Part shown: positions 12,006-36,495 of the stretch, one piece after another
Position numbering within the stretch: position 1 is the stretch's first letter
How the letters are laid out: the number at the start of each line of letters is the position of its first letter
NCBI GenBank assembly: GCA_963971425.1
Contig: OZ020518.1
Coordinates: forward strand, 3,794,263-3,858,262
Direction of reading: 5' to 3'
Source: Bryoerythrophyllum caledonicum
Taxonomy: Eukaryota; Streptophyta; Bryopsida; Pottiales; Pottiaceae
DNA: 64,000 nucleotides
The notes under the pieces: generated by a model
The model's input: only the letters and a program-made list of their open reading frames with translations
Told to the model about the DNA's origin: nothing
The model's database searches: none
Translations under genes and position numbers: made by a program

Positions 12006-13916
12006 ATGGCATTCAGTCCGCAACCTAGCAGCGAGGATCTCTTATTAGGAAGTGACCAAAATCCGCAATACAACAATGTCGTGCCTCATGATGAGACAAT
12101 GTGCTACGGTACTGATGAAGAGCATTCGAGCGGAGATGAACTTGTGGTGGGCGATCAAGAGCTGGATTATAGCCAACTTGAGCGGGTAATCGCCGGGCCA
12201 GAGAGGAGGAGTGGAGGCAGACTGCCGACGTCGAGGACCAGAGCGTCGCAGCCGACTAACTTCGGCAGTCATCGTGGAAGGATCCGATCAGTGAACGGCG
12301 TGCGGCTCTTCACCGCACCACCGGAGTGCACAACAACAGCCCAGAGATTCTCCGCAGCAGAGCAGCGGATTAGAGGGGCAGCGGTGCCTACTGCGCCTGC
12401 ATGCACTGTAGTGCTTGAGTCCACCGAAGACATAACTGCAGTCGGTTTGCAAGCACGGGCATCAGCCTTCCGCCCCGTCATGCAGGCCTCTTCGACGCAC
12501 ATTGCGCCCCCCGTAGCAGAGTCGCAGCCTCAGACCCGCAGACCTCGCATGCCACACAGAACAGGAAAATGGACAAACACTCACTTGCGGGATGCATTGG
12601 CTGCTGTAGACGGAGGTATGAGCATGAAGAAGGCTTTAGATTTGTATCACATACCTTACACATCTTTTCGTGAATGGTGTTATGGCATGAGGTGCAGTAG
12701 AAAGAGGGGGCCACCTGCAGTTTTGAGTGAAAGTGAAGAAAAACTACTTGTGGACTATTGTATACGCATGTGTGAGATGGGGCAAGGTCTAACACCTACT
12801 GCGCTCAAACTGAAAGTATATGACATAACAAAGGATAGAGTCACTCCATTCCGCGATGGCATTCCAGATGGTGGCTGGATGCGGTGGTGGCGGCATCGCC
12901 ACCCGGAGCTTACACTGCGTGTGTCTCAAGCTCTCGAAACAGCACGCGCACGGGGCCTATGTGCAGAGAACGTGGAAAGTTTTTACAAAAACTTGCAGAC
13001 TTTACTCACCTTGCATGAGTATAGTGCGGACAGGATTTGGAACTGCGACGAGTCCGGTGCGCAAGCTGGGAGGAGCGGTGGAGGAGTTGTCATCGCTCGA
13101 AAAGGCGCCCGCCATGTCCACTCACTCGTGCCTGACCAAAGAGAGTGGCTGAGTGTATTGGTTTGCATAAATGCAAGTGGAGTGAGTATCCCTTCTTTCT
13201 ATGTTTTTAAAGGCACACGGTTTAGACAAAATTACATTGAGAGATGTGAGCCCGGGGCGACGATGGCAATGCAACCTCGGGCTTGGATGACGACGTACCT
13301 CTTTAGTGCGTGGTTGTCACACTTTATTGAAAGTGTACATAGCATGGGGGGAATTTCAGTTGAGCGGAGGCACCTTATGATACTTGATGGACACAATTCG
13401 CATTGCACACTAGATGTCGTCCTCGAGGCCCGTGTTGCAGGCTTGGACATGCTCACGCTTCCCGCGCATACGTCTCACGCCCTACAACCACTAGATGTTA
13501 GTGTGTTTAAATCATTCAAGGAAAATTTCAGAAGTTACAGGGACTTCTGGACATCTCGAAATTTGTTGCAGCCTGCAACGAAGTCAACATTGGCTCACTG
13601 GGTTCATCTTGCTCTGCGAAAAGCATTGACAAAGGAGAATATATGCAGTGGATTTAGAGCGACAGGCATATATCCTCTAAACACTGCGGCAGTGAATTCA
13701 TACCTTGGTCCTGCGGATATCTTCGAAGCCTCCGAGGCTACAGCTGCCGCTCCTGACCTGCAGGTGGACGAAGAGCTTCCAGAACCTGCAGGCAATGACG
13801 ATCCGAATGTAAGGAAACTCATTAGAGTTGTGCGCAATCAATGTTATCATATTTCGTTTCCTGTACATGCGAATAATGAAGTAAGGCATGATCTCACCGT
13901 CACAGTTTTTGATTGA
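12006..13916 (+). CDS. Pogo-like (DDE_1) transposase, main ORF
   Basis: A 636-residue ORF of the pogo/Tigger/jerky branch of Tc1-mariner transposases, nuclear enzymes that cut and paste DNA at TA. After a low-complexity N-terminus comes a Psq-type helix-turn-helix at about residues 187-225 (GKWTNTHLRDALAAVDGG, then a GMSMKKAL helix). A second CENP-B-like HTH starts near 239. The DDE domain follows, with probable catalytic Asp in WNCDESG (about 348), in MILDGHNSH (about 461) and in QPLDVSVFKSFK (about 497). The ATG at 12006 is the first in frame. The ORF is intact through the catalytic core, but its last part (after EPAGNDDPN) leaves the family pattern, which resumes in another frame at 14,099. 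Terminal inverted repeats were not found, so mobility is uncertain. Confidence 0.88.
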   Translation: MAFSPQPSSEDLLLGSDQNPQYNNVVPHDETMCYGTDEEHSSGDELVVGDQELDYSQLERVIAGPERRSGGRLPTSRTRASQPTNFGSHRGRIRSVNGVRLFTAPPECTTTAQRFSAAEQRIRGAAVPTAPACTVVLESTEDITAVGLQARASAFRPVMQASSTHIAPPVAESQPQTRRPRMPHRTGKWTNTHLRDALAAVDGGMSMKKALDLYHIPYTSFREWCYGMRCSRKRGPPAVLSESEEKLLVDYCIRMCEMGQGLTPTALKLKVYDITKDRVTPFRDGIPDGGWMRWWRHRHPELTLRVSQALETARARGLCAENVESFYKNLQTLLTLHEYSADRIWNCDESGAQAGRSGGGVVIARKGARHVHSLVPDQREWLSVLVCINASGVSIPSFYVFKGTRFRQNYIERCEPGATMAMQPRAWMTTYLFSAWLSHFIESVHSMGGISVERRHLMILDGHNSHCTLDVVLEARVAGLDMLTLPAHTSHALQPLDVSVFKSFKENFRSYRDFWTSRNLLQPATKSTLAHWVHLALRKALTKENICSGFRATGIYPLNTAAVNSYLGPADIFEASEATAAAPDLQVDEELPEPAGNDDPNVRKLIRVVRNQCYHISFPVHANNEVRHDLTVTVFD

Positions 13917-22662: not shown

Positions 22663-23059
22663 TTGACGGTACTTCTTCAACGATAGGAGGCCAGCCGCCT
22701 CATCGATCACCATCCCCGTGGTGCCTCCGCAGTGCCTTGGCGATTGCCCAAGTCCGGCTCGCAGCCCCCAATTCCTTCCCCGTTCCCTGATTCTCTGTAC
22801 CCGTCCCCAGGGTTGTCTATTGTGTTGTAACGGGGACAATTTCCGTCACAATGTTACGATGTCACGACACAATGACGGCATGACATTGTGACGGATCGTG
22901 ACTTTATTGTGACGGGGCCATTTTGGCGGCAGAAAACACAATTTTCACATTTACCGAGAGAGAGACACATTGGATTTAGAAAGGAATCTCCATGCCACAT
23001 GTGCAGACATGTCATCAATTGTGGTAAATTCATGTCGTAGTAATTTTCAGCATAGGTTG

Positions 23060-23335
23060 AAGGAGTGTCCGCGCCAATCCGCGCCTCATTTCGTTATCGA
23101 AGGCTGTCCGCGGCCATTCCATGCTCAGTCCGCGGCCATTCCGCGTTTAGTCTGCGGCCATTCCACACTCAGTCCGTGGCCATTCTACGCTCAGTCCGCG
23201 GCCATTCCGCGCTCAGTCCGCGGCCAGTTCGAACCAGTGTCGCTTGTAGTCCAAGGCTGTATGCGGGCTGTCCGGGGCTGTCCGCGGCTACGTCCGGTGC
23301 CAGTCCGCACCCAAACCGTGCCTGCTCCATTTGAA
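23060..23335. repeat. CAGTCCGCGG array 1 (left subterminal of the hAT)
   Basis: About ten imperfect units of roughly 20 bp, of the form CAGTCCGCGGCCATTCCGCG, between the left hAT end and the transposase. The orientation is CAGTCCGC on the plus strand. Open frames through it are repeat artefacts. Confidence 0.85.
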
Positions 23336-23494
23336 TTTCAGTATAAAATAGTGTCGTTCCAAGGCGATGGTGCTTAATCCTGCATAGTGGCTTTCAAGAC
23401 CTTGGATTCTTTGTACAAGAATACATTGCTCGAAATCCCACTGCTGAGGAGGGAATTGCTGACCCCTAGTTGGCTCTGAATCACGTGCGACGCC

Positions 23495-25846
23495 ATGCCG
23501 CGTCGGAATTGTGTATGGGATCTATGGTACGAAGACATGGGCAACGCTCCTTCAAGAGCAGCACGACAAGTGAAGTGTCTTATTTGTTCTCACTCCATGG
23601 TTTATAGAGCCGACAGGATGTTGTCGCACATGGGGTACCGTCATCCTAGTAATCTAGGTCGTGACGTCCAATTGTGTAGGATGGTGCCTCCACATATACG
23701 TGTGTTGTTTCAAGGTTGTGATGGGATTGTTCCTAATCGTCCTGATGCTGCCAACGATGGACCCTGTTCCCAACAACTTGTTGATGACGAGAATGGGATT
23801 GGAGTGGAACACTCATTGATACAATCCGTGGTGGACGACGTGGAGCAGATTTAGAACTCCCAAACAAGTCGTGGCGTGGAATCCGTACACTTAGATAGGG
23901 AACTTCGAGAGCTACGTCAAGCGACCTTGCCTGAGGGCTTCAATATTTCCAAAAGGCAACTCTTGGACAAGGCTTATTCTAGTGCTTTCTATAAAGCAAA
24001 CATTCCATTCAATATCATTAGGCACCCTGCGTTTGTAAAAGCGGTTCAAGAAACTGCACGCGCACGAATGCCCGCCTACCATCCATCGACCTATAATGCC
24101 ATACGTACGAAGTTGTTGACAAACAAAAAATTGATGTACAAACGGCTGTCAATGTAGCCATGGGTAATGCTATATCAAAGTATGGCGTTACAATATGTAG
24201 TGATGGCCGGGACAACGTTCAGAACCGACCTTTGCTAAATGTTGTTCAGTCATGCACAAAAGGGGATGTTTTCATAGGCACCATCGATACATCGGGAAAT
24301 TATAAAGACCACTTTCATGTTGCTTCTCAAATCCGACCGTTTCTGCAAATGGTTGGACATGCAAATGTTGTCCAAGTATGCACGGACAATGCTCCAGTCA
24401 TGGCGGCCGCATGTCGTGACATCATGCAAGAAATTCCACATCTCTATGTTTAAGGATGCGTTGTCCATTGCTTGGATCTTTTACTGGAAGATAGGGGCAA
24501 ATAAGCATAGGTACAAAGGATTGTTAAGAAGGCAAGGGTTGTTTGTTAATTCATCAAGAACCACCATGCTCCACAAGCAATATTTCGAAGGTTATCACCC
24601 GATCTTTATATTCGTTTGCCCAATGAGACACGGTTTGCAACAAACTTTCTCACGATACAACGCCTCCTCCAAGTTCGCTAGACATTGGAGCGAATGGTGG
24701 TTGGTGAAGAATGGCATGTTTTTCTAGGGGGATTGCAGACTCAAAATACAAGGGCACATGCAAAAGGCCTTTATGCACGACGCGTTATATGCTCGGATGG
24801 ATTTTGGGACGTTTGTGTGAATTTTGAGTACATGGTGTTGCCGGTGGTACGTGCTCTTCGTGTGTTTGACGGCAATGCTCTCGCTATGTGTCATGCATGG
24901 AAGGTCATGCATGAATTGGGGATCCATGTTCAAGGATTTCGCAATGCCCCGTTCTGCTTGGAACAAGATTTGGCAACAAGGGCATTAGATGCCTTTAACG
25001 CAAGGTGGAGGCTCATGATTACTGACCTTCATTGGAGGGGGGCTATATTCAATCTTTCTTCGATTGGATGGGCCTCGTTGGACGAGCACGAGCTTGCGAG
25101 ACCAATTTTGAATGGTGTTCTTCGGAACCTAGTTACGAGGGAGGATGATCTAGGTTTGGTCCTCAATCAGTACCAAGATTTCATTGAAAACAGAGGGACA
25201 TTTGCAGATTCCATGCAACCAAATGTCTTGAATGTACCGCCCCATGAATGGTGGGAGGAATTTAAATGTGCCACGTTTGGGCCCGGGTCCTTCAAAAAGA
25301 GCCAAGAAGGCTCCGGATTTGGAGCTAGATATTTATGGGGACCTTAATCTTTTGGCATATAGAGGATGGGAGGATTTATCGGAGCCATGGACTTGTCAAC
25401 AGGCGTATGAACACATTGATTTTGCTCACCTCGACCGATGGTATACTCCAGAAGTACACGAGGACCATTGTCGATTGAAGCAATTGACATATTCGAATAT
25501 TACCTCCATTGAGATAAAATAAAGGTTTTTAGAGGTTTTACGAGCCATCTCTCACGAAACACGTTATCGATCAAATAACATTCCGAGAAGAATTGGAGCA
25601 ATGATATACGCGGAATGTGAGTTGGGCAAGCAGGTTGAGTGGTCGACGCTTGATCAACCTTTGTACACTATTGGTAACCTTGGCGTGCATCTAGGCAAAG
25701 CACTTTCTTCAAAGCTACATGTGCTATCGATTCCTAGAAACCCCGTGCCGGAGTGGTTTATGCGCGACAATACTTTGATTGACCCACCTAATGAAGAGTT
25801 GCCAGCGGATCGAGCAAAACCAAAGCCACGTATTCGGAGGAGGTGA
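23495..25846 (+). pseudogene. hAT (BED finger + DUF659) transposase with novel C-terminal extension
   Basis: A decayed hAT transposase. The N-terminus has a BED-type finger (CLICSHS...LSHMGYRH). Next come ISKYGVTICSDGRDNVQNRP and VVQVCTDNAPVMAAACRD, the two DUF659-type Asp blocks, then GCVVHCLDLLLED. Later parts are FATNFLTIQRLLQ and the FNLSSIGWASLDEHE region. The frame changes near 24,115 and 25,280. In-frame stops occur at 23,852, 24,451 and several places to 24,685, so no full enzyme is encoded. After PPHEWWEEF, where a typical hAT would continue into its dimerisation block, this copy has a roughly 170-residue segment (LELDIYGDLNLLAYRGWED to EWFMRDNTLIDPPNEELP). That segment is homologous to the N-terminus of the RING protein downstream. 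Confidence 0.85.
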
Positions 25847-26463
25847 AGATGCCTCCTCGTCGCGCTCCAGATATGGAATGTAAATAGTGCGTACTAATTC
25901 GGCGTATGTGTTTCATGAGGCGGATATCAAATAGTTTAGGTGCCTAAAGTCGCAAAATCAATCAAATATTTAGTAGAAAAGAATGATGTTGTGTACATGT
26001 GTACAAATTTCTATATGATTTTGAAAAAACAAATATAGAGAACTTCCATCTACTGGAGGCACATTTTCCAACCCTCTCTACGTGTTCTTCAAAAAACCTT
26101 CTAAGTTCTTCTAGAGCACACAACCATGTAAAAAAGGAAATTTGATGTGCAAGTATTGTTTTAAAGGCTTACTTTCTTGTATTCATTATCGGCATTTTTT
26201 TGTTTTTGTTTTGTTTTTGATGTATTTATTCCCTTGAAGACTACACCGTTCCTTGAATATAGTGTTGAATATAGTGTAGACCTGACTATTTGAAATTTCC
26301 TACACTAATTGAAAATTTACATGCAATTGTTGACTGACACACACTTGCTTGAGAACAAATACCCAATTAGAACTTGGCATGCACATGTTTTTATGGAAAT
26401 TAGTGTGAGTGATCTACATCAATAATCCCTCTACACTATATTCAGTGTTTAGTATACTAGACT

Positions 26464-26772
26464 GGGCGCGCGGACTAGGGGTTAGTGGGCTAGGACTGGG
26501 CGATGGGTTGCGGACTGAGCGAGGACAGTTCGCGGACTGGGCGCAAACAGTCCGCGGACGGTTTAGACAAACTGGGAGCGGACGGGGATCGGACTGGGAG
26601 CGAACAGTCCGCGGACAGGACGTCGGCTGCCCGCGGACGGGATGCGGACTGCCCGCATATTGCCCGCAGACGGGACGCGAACTACCCGTGGACGGGACGC
26701 GGGCAGTCCGCGTCCCGTCCGCAGGCTGGATAGGGAATGTGCGCGGACGGGGCGCGGACGGGGTGCACATGT
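26464..26772. repeat. CAGTCCGCGG array 2, mainly inverted
   Basis: GC-rich array between the transposase and the RING gene. Most units read GCGGACTGGGCGCGG or GCGGACGGGACGCG, that is, the complement of the unit in arrays 1, 3 and 4. Some CAGTCCGCGGAC units occur in the other orientation. It is open on both strands because of its composition. Confidence 0.8.
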
Positions 26773-27205
26773 TATAGAAAGCGGAAGGGGTCTCGATGGC
26801 TTAACACTTTCTTTGTCCTAGAAAGCTTTGACGCACTTGCCTCCACGTTGACGGCGGTGTAAGGGGCTTCAAAGGGGGAAAGTGCTCCTTTGGAGGACCT
26901 TCATTTTCCCAAGGGGAGATGTTTGTCCTCAGAAGCATCTATTTTTTCACTATTTTAGGCGATGGTTATGCCAACGGTGGAGTTTCAGCAATCTACCCAA
27001 GCATGGCAACAATATTTTGAAATGCATGCTTCAATTTGTAGCCTAGGCAACATTATTTTGAAGTGCAGGTAGTCTTCAGATCTTTGGAATAGAGCAGTTG
27101 TTGTAGAATTTTTGTATGATAATAGATAATGTGGGAAAGTAAATAGATATTATTGTAAGTAACTTTTGTGATACGGAAATCTGTTGAAGACTTTAGAAGA
27201 ATTTC

Positions 27206-28972
27206 ATGATGGAAAGCGGAGGTGGCGTTCAAGGAGCACGGAGGATGATGGTGGACAAACGAGGCGAGGAGGATTTTACAGTGAAAAGGACAAAGAGGAA
27301 CCCAACAGATTTGGAGCTGGAGGTATACGCAAACCGTGATCTTCAAGCAAAGGAGGGTTGGGAATCAGACTTGCGTGAGCCATGGACAACCGACAATGCA
27401 TTGGAGTACATCAAGTTTGCGCATCTCAACAGATGGTGGCCTGCGGAGCTCCACCCTAAACATTGTGCAGCGAAAGCAGTCACGTACAGACAGATCAATG
27501 ACGTGCATGTGAAGTGGAGGTTCCTCGAAATCCTACGTGCCCTATCTAACTTGGAGAAATGGCCAAAAAATAATATTCCCATATCCATTGCAGCATTGAT
27601 GTATGCAGAATATCAATTAGGAAAGCAAGTGGATTGGTCAACGATTCATGATCCCTTTTCAAGTGGTCGGAGACTTGGACGCCATCTTTCAGCAAAGAAA
27701 CCTCGAGAGATTCCAAGAAACAATGCCCCTCAATGGTTTCTTGATAACCCTACCTTGTACGACGATCCAAATGATGAAGTGCCATTCAATCGAGAAATAA
27801 TTGTTTCACCGAGGAAGAATAGCAGACGAAAGCATAGAGAAAGGAAGGTTGAGGCCACACATTGCAAAGAATTGGACAAGCATGCCCCAAACCAAGTTGG
27901 GGAGGGGTCAAACCCACTTTCAGCAACTATGGAGATGGCCAATGCTATTCAAAACAAAGCCGCTGACACCCCAATGAAGTTTGATGAAGATAAGTATGGT
28001 GAGTTACAGGCACAATTGGAAGTGCTTAGTGTGGAAATAAAGAGGTTGCAACATGGACGAGACGATGATGTGGAAACGGTGTCAAAAGTACGTGCGCTAG
28101 AGACAGAGAAGAAGAACTTGCTTACTGAAGTGACCCATCTACGCAATCAAGTCAATCAAGTCAAAAATAGCAATGCAAAGTACATGATTGAAGTTACAGA
28201 CTTAAAGAGGGAGCTACAAGAAATCAAGGCACAACATGTAGCAGCGGAGATGACGCATGCAAATTTGCAGCAAGAGTTGGATGAATTAAAAGCATATCGG
28301 GAGAACGAGGAATCGGCCCGAAACAATCTAAAATTGTTGGTTTCAACAATAATCAATGAGCGCGAAGAGATGATGCTTACAACGGTATTTGCCGTGGCAC
28401 GGACACGGCAATACGAGGCGGAATTCCAGAGTATATGCGCTGAATGGACATCGGAGAAGAAGTTAAGGACCCTTTTGCTCACATCATGGCCTCGTGATGA
28501 AACCATGTATCCAATCGGCTGGGACAATAGTGATCCGTCGCTACTATTGAACAACAACAGTATTGATTGGAGGCTTGTGACAGAAGAGGATCACCGTTGG
28601 GACATTGGAGAAGTGCATGATCATCCAACTGAAATGATTGGAAAGCCATTGTCGCAAAGACCACATCCCATGACATCCGATGGATCATCATGTCCTATCT
28701 GTGATAATCCTTGGGGTCCTGAAGGGTGTTATATGATTGGATCGTGTGGCCATTCGTTCCATCCGTATTGTCTAATCAAGAGTATGATTTGTTCGCATAC
28801 TTGCAGTGTATGTAGGGCGCCATTACATCCACGTTTGTATCTTCAATTTGGCCTACGAGATATCATGCAAAGTCACTCGGTGTATCGTCAAGATGATTAT
28901 GACTTTGCACTTGAAGACTTCAATGGGAACCCTATTGAGTGGAGTTGGAGACATAATATATCCAAGGCATAA
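27206..28972 (+). CDS. Coiled-coil RING-H2 protein carried by the hAT element
   Basis: A 588-residue ORF in three parts. Residues about 30-200 are homologous to the C-terminal extension of the neighbouring hAT transposase (landmarks LELEVYANRDLQAKEGWES, FAHLNRWW, YAEYQLGKQVDWST, PRNNAPQWF). A basic linker and a long coiled coil follow, rich in Glu, Lys and Leu (about 250-400). A RING-H2 finger lies near residues 498-542: CPIC, then CGHSFHPYC, then CSVC, giving the C-x2-C, C-x-H-x2-H-x2-C and C-x2-C ligand pattern. RING proteins of this type are typically E3 ubiquitin ligases; activity here is inference. Conserved-looking coding continues in frame after the TAA at 28,970, so the original protein was probably longer. 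Neighbours are GC-rich arrays on both sides. Confidence 0.8.
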   Translation: MMESGGGVQGARRMMVDKRGEEDFTVKRTKRNPTDLELEVYANRDLQAKEGWESDLREPWTTDNALEYIKFAHLNRWWPAELHPKHCAAKAVTYRQINDVHVKWRFLEILRALSNLEKWPKNNIPISIAALMYAEYQLGKQVDWSTIHDPFSSGRRLGRHLSAKKPREIPRNNAPQWFLDNPTLYDDPNDEVPFNREIIVSPRKNSRRKHRERKVEATHCKELDKHAPNQVGEGSNPLSATMEMANAIQNKAADTPMKFDEDKYGELQAQLEVLSVEIKRLQHGRDDDVETVSKVRALETEKKNLLTEVTHLRNQVNQVKNSNAKYMIEVTDLKRELQEIKAQHVAAEMTHANLQQELDELKAYRENEESARNNLKLLVSTIINEREEMMLTTVFAVARTRQYEAEFQSICAEWTSEKKLRTLLLTSWPRDETMYPIGWDNSDPSLLLNNNSIDWRLVTEEDHRWDIGEVHDHPTEMIGKPLSQRPHPMTSDGSSCPICDNPWGPEGCYMIGSCGHSFHPYCLIKSMICSHTCSVCRAPLHPRLYLQFGLRDIMQSHSVYRQDDYDFALEDFNGNPIEWSWRHNISKA

Positions 28973-29447
28973 TTGTGGCATACCTTTCAAGGGGAAGAAT
29001 TGTTAGATGATCTGGACAAACTAGTACATGCAGCAAATGAGATGTATCCTAACAAACCGGCAGATTACGGCATGAAGATGTTTTTTTACCAGACCCTTGG
29101 GTGGCATTGGAATCGTCAAAGAAACGAATTGGTGCACGGCTTAGGACCGCCACCATATTACAACTCAAGAGGCAAGCGAGCGAGCTGTGGGGGATCTAGA
29201 ACTACGAAGGGCTTATTGTGATACAACACTAACTGCAACAACTGGAACGGAGGAATTGTACTGGGAAGAACGGTACCATCAAAAACGACTACTTGTGGCG
29301 GCGCTCGATGCCATTTTGGAAGACGTCGCCCCGGAGGTGAAGGAATGGCTTAATGGTGGGGAGATACCTCGATATCGGCAAGGCCATGGACGACATGGAT
29401 ATCAAACGCGGAGTAATGTTCGTACAAGAGATGCTGCAATAGCTTAG
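28973..29447 (+). pseudogene. 3' continuation of the RING protein gene, frame-broken
   Basis: Directly after the TAA, the same frame continues for about 70 codons of plausible coding (GEELLDDLDKLVHAANEMYP, FFYQTLGWHWNRQRNELVHG). From about 29,180 coding continues in another frame (DLELRRAYCDTTLTATTGTE, LDAILEDVAPEVKEWLNGGE) to a stop at 29,447. I infer one original C-terminus broken by a stop and a frameshift. An alternative is a short second gene. No domain was recognised. Confidence 0.5.
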
Positions 29448-29771
29448 AGCACCACATTAATTTGCAGAAGTAAAGGATTAAAAATTCAGTAAACTATGAC
29501 CAGGTCTAATTTCCCGATTAAATTAGTGTATCTAAAGCTCTCATGTTCTTTTCTTTGACATTATGAACATAGAATTCACAGTGAGTTGTACACAACAGGA
29601 TATTTTTTGCCCATTTTGAATGCATTTATATCGAGGTTCAAAGCAAATTTGGACAAAACTGTTCTCACATTGCCAAAACTTGTAGTTACACGGCGACCTT
29701 GTTGTCTCCCCCAACCCCACCCTTATAGCAATGGCAATTGCAAAGAGGAATTCAAAGGAGAAAAATGACGC

Positions 29772-29945
29772 CCATTCAGCGGACAGGCCGCGGGCAGTCC
29801 GCGGTCTGTGGGGGCTAGTCCGCGGGCAATCCGCTGCCAGTCCGCGGGCTCTTCCAACCTAATCCACGCACTGTCCGCGGCTAGTCCGCGCCTAGTACGC
29901 GACCAGTCCGCTCCCCGACCACGCTGTTCTCCAGGTTTCCAACCC
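29772..29945. repeat. CAGTCCGCGG array 3
   Basis: About eight units built on CAGTCCGCGGGC/CTAGTCCGCGG, plus orientation, between the RING gene and the kinase-like cassette. Confidence 0.8.
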
Positions 29946-30204
29946 TATCCGCAATGTTCCCGACCCCTTGCAGCCTACATAAAGGCGGCTAGGCCATTGA
30001 CGTCCTCACTTTTTTCCCTCCATTTCCTTGCCCAATAGGAACCCGAGACCTTGTTGCGCGAGCACCATTACACGGGTTTCGAGGGTATAAGAGTTGGGAG
30101 AGACAAATGCGGGGGGAACCCTTGTCATTTTTTTCCACACTCACTCACTTTCGCACTGCACTTTAAGTGACCGGTTTAAGTGACCGGTTAATTATTTTAC
30201 AGAA

Positions 30205-30945
30205 ATGGCCGATAGCAGGGTGCATTATCAAAATGCAGACATGCAACTCCACGAGGCTCATCAAGTGGAAATTCAATCAACCACTGCTGCAGCCGATCGT
30301 GTGAGTGGTGGTATGTTGGCGAGAGGACAAGGTAGTGGAAGTGGGCGAAGTGACAAGGGTCGGAGGCACGGCATGGAACAATTGCACCAAGAATTTCATG
30401 CACTTGGACGAAATAGTTCTCGTGGGTCGCAATCACATTCACGAGGCACAATAGGATCTCAAGGCGTTCTACGAGGATCAGTGCGGGGGACCACTGAAGC
30501 TGGGCGGTCACGAGGATCACAAAGTTTGAGCGGATTTCGGCACCCGGGAGCTCGTAGTTCAGGCGGATCAAGTGGTGAGCCCGCAGTAGGAGAGCCATCG
30601 TTGAGGGCCGTTCAACATGGTGCGGTACCATCTGCAACAAATTTCTTGGTTCCAAGCGAACCTTTAGTTGGAGCGAGACGAGGGTGGGGTAAACGCTCAG
30701 CTTTTTCTCAAGACTCAGAGCCCTACAAGAAAAGAGCAAGGACAAGCCATTTGGATGCAATGAGCAAGGAATTTATGTTCCGGGTTGTAGCAGATATATT
30801 ATTTTGGATGATAGAGAAAGGTCTATCTAGGTTGGAGAAACGGTACTTGTGTAACGGCGCTACAGGACTAGAAGCTATGGAGGCAAGATTGGTACTCATT
30901 ATCCAAAATATTGCCAATGAAGAAAAATTTGCCAGGATAAATTGA
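30205..30945 (+). CDS. Ser/Gly/Arg-rich protein, first part of the kinase cassette
   Basis: A 246-residue ORF with an ATG in good context (CAGAAATGG). The first 180 residues are low-complexity and rich in Ser, Gly and Arg (SRGSQSHSRG, GGSSGEPAVGEP). A basic KKRART motif that could act as a nuclear signal follows, then a more ordered end (FMFRVVADILFWMIEKGLSR). The stop TGA at 30,943 overlaps the frame in which the kinase-like coding begins. The two are probably parts of one gene separated by a frameshift or an unrecognised splice. No family recognised. Confidence 0.5.
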   Translation: MADSRVHYQNADMQLHEAHQVEIQSTTAAADRVSGGMLARGQGSGSGRSDKGRRHGMEQLHQEFHALGRNSSRGSQSHSRGTIGSQGVLRGSVRGTTEAGRSRGSQSLSGFRHPGARSSGGSSGEPAVGEPSLRAVQHGAVPSATNFLVPSEPLVGARRGWGKRSAFSQDSEPYKKRARTSHLDAMSKEFMFRVVADILFWMIEKGLSRLEKRYLCNGATGLEAMEARLVLIIQNIANEEKFARIN

Positions 30946-30956
30946 GACATTCAATG

Positions 30957-32156
30957 GACACATGGCCCATATTGTTTGCCAAACAAGCTGTTCACAATCC
31001 CTTGAAGACTATTTGGGATGTCTATTACAAGGAAGATGTAAGCAAACAAGCAATGGATGTGAAGTTATTGTTTGAGAGACTCAAAGAGGGGGTAGAAGCA
31101 ATCAAGCCAAAAGGGAGAACTAACCTCGCTATTCCTTGGATTGATCAAGATTTGGTTGCGCGGGTTGCGAGTAGAGGTCGCGAAGGTGTAGTGTGGCTTC
31201 CAATGCACGCAGAGGTGAAGGCGTTGGATACTAGAAATTATGAAGGAGGCTTTGGAGTTGTCCGTCGTGTGAGTATTGAGGGCGTAAGTTGCATTCCAGC
31301 ACACATGGACTTTGCGGGGAAAACAATGAAGGAGGGTAGTCGTGAAAAAAACCGGGAGACACGTTCAATTGAGGCGCTAGCGTGTCCAGTAGACCATGCA
31401 GGGGTTATCAAAATTCAGTACCTGGATAGAAGAATATACAAGTCGTATATTCTATGGTGGAACGGTGGCTCACTAGCATCCATTTGGAGGATCGGTTCAA
31501 AATATGACGAGGAACACGAAGATGATATTCTAAAAACAGCTGGAATCGACCTTGAGGCTTGTATGGAACTATGCGTGTATCGTAAAAATCGGGCCTATTT
31601 AGCATGGGCACTACTGTGCATCATGGATGTGATACATTTCCAACGCCTATTGCACAACGACTTGAGCCCCAACAATGTTATGCTTCATTTTCCGCCAGAG
31701 AAAAAAGATGTAGTATACATCGGGGTGTGTGATTGGGGAATGGCATCATAGGACGGTGAAGACAAGATGTCAAACTACGGCCGACCCTCTAGTACAGAGC
31801 TAGGTGCTTTCCGAGTTAAGTATTGTTATGCTGCCCCCGAGTTTTTTAATGTGTATAGGAAGCTCGGAACACCAACATCACCGAGGAGAATGGGATTAAA
31901 GCATAAGCACAACTATAGATCTGAGGCATATGCAGTGGAGTACTTGGCAAGGAGGATCTACAACCGCGATTGCTCTTCAAGCTTGTTCCAAAAGAACAAA
32001 GATCCGAGTTCATTGTCTAAGCGATTTGAGCAAGCCATGGACGAGTTGTTGAAACCCAATCCACTGGAGAGATCAACCGTCACGCATGTAATAAACTTGT
32101 TGAAAGGATTGCCCTACAACCTAGCTACACCATGGGATTTCTTCCGCAATGAGTAG
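30957..32156 (+). pseudogene. Protein-kinase-like gene carried by the hAT element, in-frame stop
   Basis: A eukaryotic-type protein kinase fold can be read in one frame. It has a Gly-rich loop YEGGFGVVRRV, a Lys in FAGKTMK, a helix-C-like Glu in NRETRSIEAL, a catalytic loop HNDLSPNNVML (His and Asp of HxD plus the Asn), DWG in place of DFG, and an APE-like CYAAPEFF. A C-lobe tail (LLKPNPLERSTVTHVINLL) follows. The HxDLSPxNV style resembles FunK1-like and similar atypical kinases more than ordinary plant receptor kinases; this is inference. A TAG at 31,749 lies between GMAS and DGEDKM, but the same frame resumes at once to 32,156. No ATG in strong context starts the kinase part itself; the first Met is in MDTWPILF at about 30,954. 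All key residues are present, so the ancestor was probably an active kinase. Confidence 0.72.
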
Positions 32157-32399
32157 TATTTAGTATATTGTGATTTCATAGTCCTTAGATATTGTAGGAT
32201 ATGTAGCATCTTCTCTATGTTGTGAAGTGTTGTCTAATTTATATTCGGTTATTTAAAAGAAAAAAATGCCTTTTTGGACTTCCCTGTAATTTTGAATGAA
32301 GAACAACTTTGTATAAATTGTTTTGATTTGGTCTTCCAATCCCGCCCTTTGTATCTTCAGAAAATAAAAATGGAATAACGAAATTCAAAAATATCCTAA

Positions 32400-33125
32400 C
32401 TACCTATCCGCGCTCCCCCACTCCCAATCCGCGTTGCATTGGCGCCTAGGCCGATGCAAGTCCGCGATCAGTCTGCAGCAATGTCCGCGATCAGTCCGCA
32501 GAAGTGTCCGCAGCCACTCCGCAGTGTATCCGTAGCCACTCCGCGGCACTGTCCGCGACCAGTCCGCAGCGAGTCCGTGGGTCCCCATCCAGTCCGCTGC
32601 GTATCCGCAGCCAGTCCACGGGTCCACATCCAGTCCGCTACGTATCCGCGATTAGTCCGCAGCAGCGTCCGCAGCCAGTTCGCGGGTCCCCATCCCGTCC
32701 GCTGCGTATCCAAACCAATCCGCGGGTCCACATCCAGTCCGCTACGTATCCGCGGTAGTGTCCGCGGCCAGTCCGCAGCCAGTCCGCGGGTTCCCGTCCA
32801 GTCCGCTGCGTATCCACAGCCAGTCCGCGGGTCCACATCCAGTCCGTGACTGATTGCAGCCAGTCCGCGATCAGTCCGCAGCAGCGGTTGCAGCCAGTCC
32901 GCGGGTACACATCCAGTCCGCTACGTATCCGCAGCCTGTCCGCAGGACCAAGTTCATTCCGCGACATATCCGCAGCCAGTCCGCGAGTCTGCACTCAGTC
33001 CGCGGGTCCATGATAATCCGTTGCGTATCCGCAGCCAGTCCGCAACAGTGTCCGCACGCAGTGCGCGCCATGTCCGCGGACGGTCATCGCATGTCCGCGT
33101 GCGGTCCGCTCCTAAACCGCTTCCT
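32400..33125. repeat. CAGTCCGCGG array 4 (right subterminal of the hAT)
   Basis: The largest array, about 0.7 kb, plus orientation. It has higher-order units of the form CAGTCCGCGGGTCCACATC followed by CAGTCCGCTACGTATCCGCAG. Variable AGCAGTGTCCGC spacers occur. It lies between the kinase cassette and the right hAT end. Several long overlapping open frames on both strands are artefacts. Confidence 0.88.
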
Positions 33126-33386
33126 CCAAAAAACCCCCCCATTTAATTGATTTTCACTCAAAGGTTAATACTACACAGCAAAAGTTAAAAGTGGTGAGAT
33201 ACACGTAGGATGTCACTGCCACATAAGACGGCCACGTCGATGCCGAGGTAGCATATGTACCATACATAGAGGTAAAGTTCATCTTAGACACTCTATTGTG
33301 TCGTGACGAGAGGGTCCATCACGACATGTCACGTCATGACGGCACGTCATTATCACAATGTCACGATAGACAACCCTGCCCGCCCC

Positions 33387-34396: not shown

Positions 34397-36495
34397 ATGC
34401 ATACATTTCTCATGATATGGTGGAAGATTTCATGTACGGTCAGGCTTGTGAGAATGGCTCATCAGTTGGTTGGAATGTGAAAGAGGGAAAGAGAGGGGAA
34501 CAGAAAAGGAGGCCGTATATTTTGTCATTTGTTGAACATGTATGGTATGAATGTGCATACGGCCCGGAAAATCATAGGAATGATCCATGTTTTTCTAAAT
34601 CCCATAAACGATGATACATTGTCGAGTTATCGGTTAAGTAATTGCAATTATATCCGGATGTTGCTGAAGTTGGATATTCTCACATCGATAACATACGAGA
34701 CAATGGAACTCTAGCTCACGACCCTAGTGATCCGGAGTCTTTTGGGAGAAAAATCGTTCATTAACCTAGGATGAGTGCCGAAATGAAGGCCTGGATCAAA
34801 CGGAAACTAAGTGCAAGATTCACATTTTTCAAATATTTGAAGAACATCGGCGAAATTGAAATGATCGAGGAAAATCATGTGTACCTTATACCCGAGATGA
34901 CTTCATCAAGCTCAAAGACATTGCCTCCTTATAAGGACGTCAGAAGATGGAAATTTGGCGTAGAGATCCGTTGGACTTTGCTAGTGTATAGATGTAGACT
35001 TAGGCATGTCTTGAGAACGTGTTTATGTGGCATGAACCAGACGTTGTAACAAGCTTACCTTTCATTTTGGGTATCCAGACCAATTGGCAGAGGAAAATGA
35101 TGATGAAATTCGGGCATAGGAGAGCAATCTCTAAGGACACAACTCACGCTACAAAGATCTCTAACTACCTTCTCTCGTCTCTATTTTTGTTTGATGACTA
35201 GAATAACCAAATTCTTGTTGCTTGGGTGCTTTCAAGTTGATCCACGGAAGAGGATTTGACAATGTGCATTCCAAATTATCAAGAAGTGGAAGAACCATAT
35301 CCTTTTCAAGGTCCCAAATGTGGGAAACTTGCCAGATCTCGTATATAAAGTTTTCCACCATTTTTTGTACTTAAAGATTGAGTTTAAAGAAGAGGAATTG
35401 GATTTCTAGGAACGAGCAAAAAAAATTGGTGAAACTCTTTTCCAATACCTCTACGTGGATAAATTTCAAAAATACTTTGAAACACACTACAAACATCAAG
35501 GTATATGTATTCTTCTTGATCCTTTGTAGTTTTGCATTTTTTGTAATTCAATACTTTACTTAGATTTGGAAAGCCGACAAGAAAAATGATGTCAATATAT
35601 GTACTCAATGTGTTGTATTTATATTGTTCCAGGATTATATCTCATTAGTTACCGTCGGCATTATCATTCAAACTAAGATACTCAATCTATTACTGAAGGT
35701 TACCATGGAGCTCTTTAACGGTGGATGTTGGTCAATAATCGAGATAAGCGAGGGAGAAGGTTGGATTTCCTAGTATGGCGATTGACAAACCCCATTATTA
35801 ACCAGTACATGTATATGCAAGGGCAAAAGATAAATGGTTATATTTCAAATAAATTTGTCGAAGGAACTGTGGAGAAAGGAATTACACGAGCAAAGACAAT
35901 TCGTCTTGATGATATTCTACCGCCGAAGGAAGGAGATTTTCTATGGCAAGTAAAATCACAATTGATTGAACATCGTTGGTATGACATTTGCAAAGCATTC
36001 ACTTTGTATGCTTATTGCTCATGTGAATGGAGTATACTAGGAAATATGTGTAAGCATCAACTCGCCGTTTTCAAAGTCTCTAGTGATTTGTCATGGAAGG
36101 CTATGTTAGAATTCCTAGGAACTTACTGTGGTTCGATTCGAGGGGGACTCAAACCTATGTTCACTCACAATGTTCCAAGTGATCCTTTTGAAGCTGAGGA
36201 TAGTGAATACGTCAATGACAAAGATGTAGCGGAAGACAATGATGTAGCGAGAGACAATGATGTATTGAGGGATGACATTGTGCCAGGATTCAACATTCGT
36301 GATGTATTGAAAGATGTTCTATCAAATAAGAACATTAGCCGTAACGAAGCAAAGAGTACGCCAAAATCTGCTGAGCATATTGTACGTATGATTAGAATTT
36401 TGGTAGAAGAGGCAATATGTGAAGCTTCTAATGGTGGTGATGCTCTTCTTTACTACTTTTCTTTGATGATGTCTACCGTCACCCATGGTAGGTGA
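34397..36495 (+). pseudogene. MULE transposase with SWIM zinc finger, decayed
   Basis: Remnant of a Mutator-like transposase. In the region 35,040-35,220 a typical MULE block can be read (PFILGIQTNWQRKMMMKFGH, then KDTTHATK with a catalytic-type Asp, then SSLFLFDDWNNQILVAWV), interrupted by stops. The last open part (35,725-36,495) holds a SWIM finger, YAYCSCEWSILGNMCKHQLA, matching CxC...CxH, followed by an Asp-rich repeat tail (NDKDVAEDNDVARDNDV). SWIM fingers are usual at the C-terminus of MULE/FAR1-type proteins. Upstream pieces from 34,397 are too broken to assign with confidence. Confidence 0.75.

Follow-up and report, generated by a model that had tools for sequence, protein, structure and literature searches.

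The element at 22808-33378

The DNA considered here, referred to as the window, is a stretch of 64,000 nt of contig OZ020518.1 of the moss Bryoerythrophyllum caledonicum (assembly GCA_963971425.1); coordinates given without a contig or locus prefix are positions in it. A transposon of the hAT superfamily occupies 22808-33378. The hAT elements are textbook one-gene cut-and-paste transposons; the copy in the window carries the remains of a transposase, a RING protein and a protein kinase. Its left terminal inverted repeat (TIR; 22808-22824, + strand) begins with CAGGGTTGTCTATTGTG at 22808, and the right one (33362-33378, - strand) reads CAGGGTTGTCTATCGTG on the opposite strand and ends at 33378; 16 of their 17 bases are identical. 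The octamers of the target site duplication (TSD), CCCGTCCC at 22800-22807 on the left and CCCGCCCC at 33379-33386 on the right, match in 7 of 8 positions. Both ends are assigned from the TIR match and the TSD reading, and the left end also from genomic copies of its 13-mer.

The interior is an alternation of genes and short-motif arrays. A left subterminal array of 11-bp units with 7 exact GTCCGC sites (23067-23308, + strand) lies upstream of the transposase remnant (23480-25256, + strand), which is interrupted by stops or frame changes and has lost its 3' part. DUF659 (24097-24450; E=1.2e-19) is the only domain matched in this remnant, the C-terminal part being deleted. At an internal-deletion junction with a 3-bp overlap (25254-25256) the transposase passes directly into RING-a', and about 10.7 kb present in a relative, D19, is skipped. 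RING-a' (25254-25843, + strand; L050:3656-4129) is an N-terminal-only duplicate of a gene called RING-a, with its own upstream array; it has no RING domain and, in the window, one in-frame stop. The array upstream of RING-b (26470-26759, - strand) contains 14 exact GTCCGC sites, 10 on the - and 4 on the + strand. RING-b itself (27206-29444, + strand) encodes an N-terminal domain, a coiled coil and a RING-H2 domain, and is broken by a stop at 28970-28972 followed by a frame change. An array with 7 exact GTCCGC sites (29779-29911, + strand) precedes the protein-kinase gene (30205-32153, + strand), whose frame is shifted near 30940 and interrupted by a stop at 31749-31751, and the right subterminal array (32460-33109, + strand) has 30 exact sites. 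The Pfam matches of the window copy to RING (E=1.7e-4) and protein kinase (E=5.8e-5) score below the Pfam gathering scores. Judged against D19, the copy is a 10.6-kb internal-deletion derivative and not the full element; since its three genes are broken and it carries an internal deletion, it is presumably non-autonomous.

A hAT element at these positions, with a transposase relic, a coiled-coil RING protein and a kinase, had been proposed in the original prediction, and is confirmed by the TIRs, the TSD and the three gene remnants. Two parts of that description are revised. The TIR-bounded 10.6-kb unit is a deletion derivative rather than a complete transposon, and 25254-25843 belongs to RING-a' and not to the transposase. 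The interpretation of this segment as a transposase tail sharing a domain with RING-b was ruled out, because the relatives show it to be the start of the truncated RING-a duplicate.

Family ends in the genome

The 13-mer end CAGGGTTGTCTAT occurs 392 times (183 and 209 on the two strands) in the 437-Mb genome to which the window belongs; a reversed-pattern control gave 1 and 0 occurrences. TSDs were read at convergent pairs less than 30 kb apart, picked by eye among 100 of the 392 sites. Seventeen pairs were picked and 16 of them read (C2:21924568-21926165 was left out), to which the window was added. The octamers agree in 8/8 positions in 11 of these 17 pairs, in 7/8 in four, including the window, and in 6/8 in one; the remaining pair, a foldback copy, has 0/8. 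The foldback element L069 (C2:9236470-9237430) has two left-type ends, and its flanking octamers are mutually reverse-complementary. Short TIRs, an 8-bp TSD and, in an intact relative, a transposase with the C-terminal dimerisation domain place the family in hAT.

Larger relatives

The relatives fall into two subfamilies, A, estimated at 21-23 kb, and B, of about 19 kb. In both, the transposase, RING-a, RING-b and kinase genes follow in one order, RING-b being inverted in B. Two copies contain all four genes between TIRs: B9 (C1:9077722-9096901), 19.2 kb long with an 8/8 TSD, and D43 (C1:43248000-43267068), a subfamily B member of 19.1 kb with a 7/8 TSD. In D43 the transposase is open over 1085 aa and the kinase over 647 aa, and the B9 kinase aligns to residues 1-461 of 647.

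In A21 and A54, which belong to subfamily A, RING-a', RING-b and kinase lie on one strand, and A54 additionally has the transposase and RING-a ahead of them. In the DNA examined around A54 and A21, neither left end was located. D19 (C2:19309653-19328849) has an 8/8 TSD and an open RING-a; RING-b and half of the kinase are missing where the sequence has exactly 200 N in a row, probably an assembly gap. E50 (C1:50906257-50917104; TSD 8/8) contains the transposase and RING-a, followed likewise by a 200-N run. Because the window copy skips about 10.7 kb of D19, its parent would have measured 21.3 kb, and addition of the missing 3.7 kb to D19 gives a full size of about 23 kb. RING-a' is an open frame of 214 aa without a RING domain in A21 and A54 and of 158 aa in D19; it is possibly a regulator.

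Smaller members also occur. TIR-bounded elements of 3.7 kb (C2:23182426-23186115; TSD 7/8) and 7.3 kb (C1:12095172-12102517; TSD 8/8) each contain an open full-length kinase frame, and the former is too small for a second full-length gene. At C7:5227425-5262006 a subfamily A and a subfamily B gene set adjoin. Beside A21, L046:525-1145 is a plastid-like Ycf1 fragment (E=3.6e-45), which is either nuclear plastid DNA or an assembly join.

Gene census

The genes of the family were counted from scored candidate matches, so that all counts are lower bounds. The transposase was found in at least 42 places (3011 candidates scored), RING-a in at least 62 (64 rows, 3292 candidates), RING-b in at least 61 (73 rows, 3423 candidates) and the kinase in at least 68 (2401 candidates); 2 of the 64 RING-a rows and 12 of the 73 RING-b rows were removed as extra pieces of places already counted. 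Twenty of the kinase places have no internal stops, 16 of them being full length.

These genes are strongly clustered. Of the 61 RING-b places, 35 have a kinase within 12 kb, where even placement would give 0.25; it is downstream on the same strand in 26 of the 35, divergent in 8 and otherwise placed in one. Among the 42 transposase places, 25 have RING-b, kinase or both within 30 kb (both in 9; 0.79 expected), downstream of the transposase in 24 of these 25. When all four genes are clustered at 13 kb, 145 clusters result, 60 of which contain at least two gene kinds (three kinds in 13 and four in 5). The order transposase, RING-a, RING-b, kinase, with missing parts allowed, fits 56 of these 60. 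The outcome that would have refuted the original prediction, absence of any other copy with the same gene order, did not arise.

Encoded proteins

The transposase of an intact relative matches DUF659 (E=2e-34) and Dimer_Tnp_hAT (E=8.7e-12). Its N-terminus has no Pfam BED match at E<=0.1, and a Cys/His pattern is visible there by eye.

RING-a and RING-b are paralogous coiled-coil RING proteins and putative E3 ubiquitin ligases. In intact relatives their RING domains score 25.8 and 26.3 bits, under the gathering score of 27.3. Each of the 10 homologues has Cys or His at all eight ligand positions, of which seven are invariant and the eighth is His in five and Cys in five. P0006-P0010 form a divergent RING clade in which a ligand His is replaced by Cys. 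The residue after the last RING Cys, which has a linchpin role, is Arg in 4 of the 10 homologues, His in 5 and Lys in 1. The best match of the RING profile in the PDB is RNF38 (E=5.4e-5).

The kinase is of the eukaryotic-like type and in intact relatives exceeds the Pfam gathering score (32.5 against 31.7 bits). Residues were counted in 34 of 37 aligned homologues, P0040, P0044 and P0047 being left out: the catalytic Lys is kept in all 34, the alpha-C Glu in 30, the HRD Asp in 31, the catalytic-loop Asn in 33 and the DFG Asp in 30. In the PDB the kinase profile matches weakly and over short stretches, which indicates a divergent kinase family.

Homologues were found in other datasets for the transposase (52, best 75% identity), the RING protein (10, best 81%) and the kinase (37, best 72%), the RING and kinase counts being drawn from about 8000 scored candidates that share most words. 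For the best transposase match and the best kinase match alike, the longest contig given measures 15,563 bp, and because the lengths are equal the two are probably on one contig of another dataset. To judge from the kinase and transposase relatives, the lineage may be an old one that occurs in several eukaryotes. One kinase relative, P0040, is filed in a metagenome-assembled genome of a lichen fungus (Gyalolechia), a bin into which DNA of algae or other sources may have entered. Scanned with the kinase profile, neither viral contigs (51 stretches) nor the prokaryote collection (9 stretches) yielded a confirmed relative, and an origin of the kinase from giant viruses or prokaryotes was rejected for want of such relatives.

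Selection and gene history

The ratio of nonsynonymous to synonymous divergence (dN/dS) was estimated between subfamilies A and B by NG86. For the main pair of each gene it is 0.296 (0.243-0.359) for the transposase, 0.258 (0.202-0.325) for RING-a, 0.262 (0.210-0.328) for RING-b and 0.235 (0.184-0.305) for the kinase, where the brackets are 95% bounds with all upper bounds below 0.36; these ratios are rough, because dS between the subfamilies is 0.6-1.3. Over 421 codons, a second kinase pair has a ratio of 0.286, and windows over the catalytic part of the kinase gave 0.05-0.12. The similarity of the values for all four genes indicates that the accessory genes have been constrained as much as the transposase. 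Within subfamily A, 16 RING-b copies of equal length have a median dN/dS of 0.49, with 109 of 120 pairs below 1; these are 16 of 30 loci, L019 (no assigned stretch) and 13 loci of other lengths being excluded. The closest copies differ by a dS of 0.002, so that movement was probably recent.

In a phylogenetic tree RING-a and RING-b are separate supported clades. Each contains A and B sequences, and the duplication of the RING gene is therefore older than the split between the subfamilies.

The original prediction had envisaged a large cargo-bearing hAT lineage, and had named dN/dS of its RING and kinase genes as a check. The lineage is supported by the 19-kb copies, the common gene order and the low dN/dS between subfamilies, which was obtained for RING and kinase genes alike; the number of RING genes is two and not one.

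Motif arrays

The arrays are built of 11-bp units with a TCCGC core, AGTCCGCGGC-like in subfamily A and CCATCCGC-like in B. The motif differs by subfamily, being AGTCCGCGG-like in A and CATCCGC-like in B. Of the 62 GTCCGC sites in the window, 58 are inside the element; shuffles of the whole window average 12.7 and reach at most 25. At the ends and upstream of genes, A54 and D43 have 17-40 sites per kb, which compares with 0-4 for coding sequence and the counted spacers; the count for A54 is without its left end, and D19 shows an array at the left end. In D43 the divergent RING-b and kinase genes have one array in common. TATA-like words are found near several arrays.

Two further reading frames lie in the window outside the element. 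An open frame of 636 aa at 12006-13916 encodes a pogo/Tigger-like DDE_1 transposase with HTH_psq, and a 256-aa frame at 35725-36495 has a SWIM zinc finger (E=2e-4) and is possibly part of a transposase.

Interpretation

The copies, the gene order and the divergence between subfamilies very probably reflect a hAT family in which the large members encode, besides a transposase, three selected accessory proteins, the window copy being a deleted member. They suggest that there are transposons which carry protein-modifying machinery of their own.

Several observations weigh against this reading. Among the copies read, none combines intact ends with all four genes open: both RING genes of D43 have frame changes, and in B9 all four genes have stops or frame changes. 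No RING-b or kinase lies within 30 kb of 17 of the 42 transposase places, and 85 of the 145 clusters contain a single gene kind. The tryptophan that RINGs usually have on the E2-binding face seems absent. In the kinase, the third Gly of the glycine loop is kept in 29, the DFG Gly in 27 and the APE Glu in 26 of the 34 homologues. The dN/dS values between subfamilies come from one main pair per gene at a dS of 0.6-1.3, and the transposase tail is partly near neutral, reaching 0.94 in one window. Close pairs within subfamilies have ratios of 0.65 (RING-a), 0.52 (RING-b) and 0.87 (kinase), and the five stop-free RING-b copies give values above 1 in 6 of their 10 pairs, at a dS of 0.004-0.015. Weak recent constraint is expected after insertion, yet it provides no support for present constraint. 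The pattern is that expected of genes which would be under selection between transpositions and not afterwards.

How such an element might use its accessory genes can be outlined in two steps. In the first, a protein encoded by the element would bind the arrays, and the best candidate is the N-terminal domain of the transposase; the end arrays would be bound for movement and those upstream of genes for regulation. Binding of all arrays by one element protein would make the transposase and accessory genes respond together. The chances that the arrays tie gene expression together in this manner are about even. In the second step, ubiquitin-ligase activity of the RING proteins and phosphorylation of proteins of the element or the host by the kinase would shift either the activity of the transposase or silencing by the host to the benefit of the element, somewhat after the fashion of VANC in VANDAL elements. 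This step is plausible at somewhat below even chances, and in it anti-silencing is inseparable here from control of the transposase or of repair. The complete proposal, a post-translational module of two ubiquitin ligases and a kinase that is wired to the transposase by the arrays and either defends the transposase or defeats silencing, is put forward tentatively.

DNA transposons commonly capture genes, and the accessory genes might be passengers, pieces of the host taken up once by an ancestor and useless to the element. Many copies are indeed broken, and the kinase-bearing elements of 3.7 and 7.3 kb would suit this explanation; it is nevertheless very improbable, as the same gene set and order is kept in two subfamilies separated by a dS of 0.6-1.3, accessory dN/dS of 0.24-0.26 shows constraint no weaker than in the transposase, the gene kinds cluster in the genome, and A and B both retain both RING paralogues. 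Selection on these genes and the occurrence of relatives in other datasets would equally be expected if the RING and kinase genes benefited the host, as genes of the fungal Starships may. The many broken copies, and the arrays in common with the transposase gene, fit an element-centred role better, and a host-serving cargo is considered very improbable, although individual host loci outside elements are conceivable.

A composite or nested insertion, or a virus remnant, could also have been taken for one hAT element, and the adjoining gene sets at C7:5227425-5262006 and the plastid-like insert near one A copy are the kind of arrangement that would mislead in this way. That two separate copies hold the four genes between matching TIRs, with TSDs of 8/8 and 7/8, and that the kinase profile lacks confirmed viral or prokaryote relatives, makes such an error extremely unlikely. 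A different mechanism in the same element is a real possibility, though short of even: the arrays may be sites of host transcription factors or passive repeats, and the RING proteins and kinase may act in cell-cycle or repair control. The TATA-like words near several arrays speak for this reading. Against it, the arrays are also subterminal at both ends, where hAT transposases bind (PMC8097297, PMC10368747).

If the proposal of a hAT lineage keeping RING proteins and a kinase for its own use is true, such elements can carry regulatory enzymes. It would also be a second case, unrelated to the VANDAL elements of Arabidopsis, of non-coding motif arrays that may tie the genes of an element to its own proteins. 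The question is testable, as numerous open frames are present within one genome.

Comparison with known systems

The VANDAL transposase is Mutator-like, and the accessory VANC protein bears DUF1985. No DUF1985 match was obtained in the Pfam scan of the intact relatives, which gave hAT domains, RING-type and coiled-coil families and kinase, and neither a Mutator-like transposase nor VANC. VANC binds arrays of short motifs and lifts silencing (PMC5735166), which offers an alternative for the present family, with an accessory protein instead of the transposase on the arrays. VANDAL is, like the present family, a multi-gene plant DNA transposon with dense tandem arrays of short motifs in its non-coding parts, and its motif varies among families as that of the present element varies among subfamilies (PMC5735166). 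The two differ in transposase superfamily and in their accessory proteins, VANC being DNA-binding where RING proteins and a kinase are found here.

Large DNA elements with cargo are also known in fungi. The giant Starships resemble the present family in this respect and differ in their tyrosine recombinase with DUF3435 (PMC12506042), a domain absent among the Pfam matches of the window copy and of the intact relatives. The 14-kb fungal ToxhAT was earlier described as a cargo-bearing hAT and has been reclassified as a likely non-autonomous Tc1/mariner element with TA duplications (PMC12506042); it was therefore dropped as a hAT precedent. Among the open-access papers listed for hAT, giant transposons or cargo, 10-20 from each large result set, none describes a hAT element with RING and kinase genes. 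A term search of a review on giant transposons gives no instance of the word hAT (PMC6431247), and one of a 2026 review on plant gene capture gives neither hAT nor kinase, RING or giant (PMC13317346). The accessible part of a study of 276 plant hAT sequences never contains the words kinase or captured and reports no hAT of a moss (Physcomitrella) (PMC6027215).

The proposed binding of the arrays has parallels within hAT. The transposase of Hermes uses BED domains to bind subterminal repeats, and Hermes shares with the present family the possession of such repeats (PMC10368747). DNA-binding domains derived from hAT often favour CGG or CGC, and four hAT-encoded domains match subterminal regions of their own elements (PMC8097297). 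This preference resembles the CCGCGG/TCCGC arrays described here; the CGG-binding proteins are mostly domesticated host proteins (PMC8097297), whereas binding to the present arrays is a prediction. With the hAT superfamily (Ac, Hermes, Tol2) the family has in common the CAGGG-type TIR, the 8-bp TSD and the DUF659 and C-terminal dimerisation domains. It differs in its size of 19-23 kb, in its three accessory genes and in the arrays that also lie upstream of internal genes.

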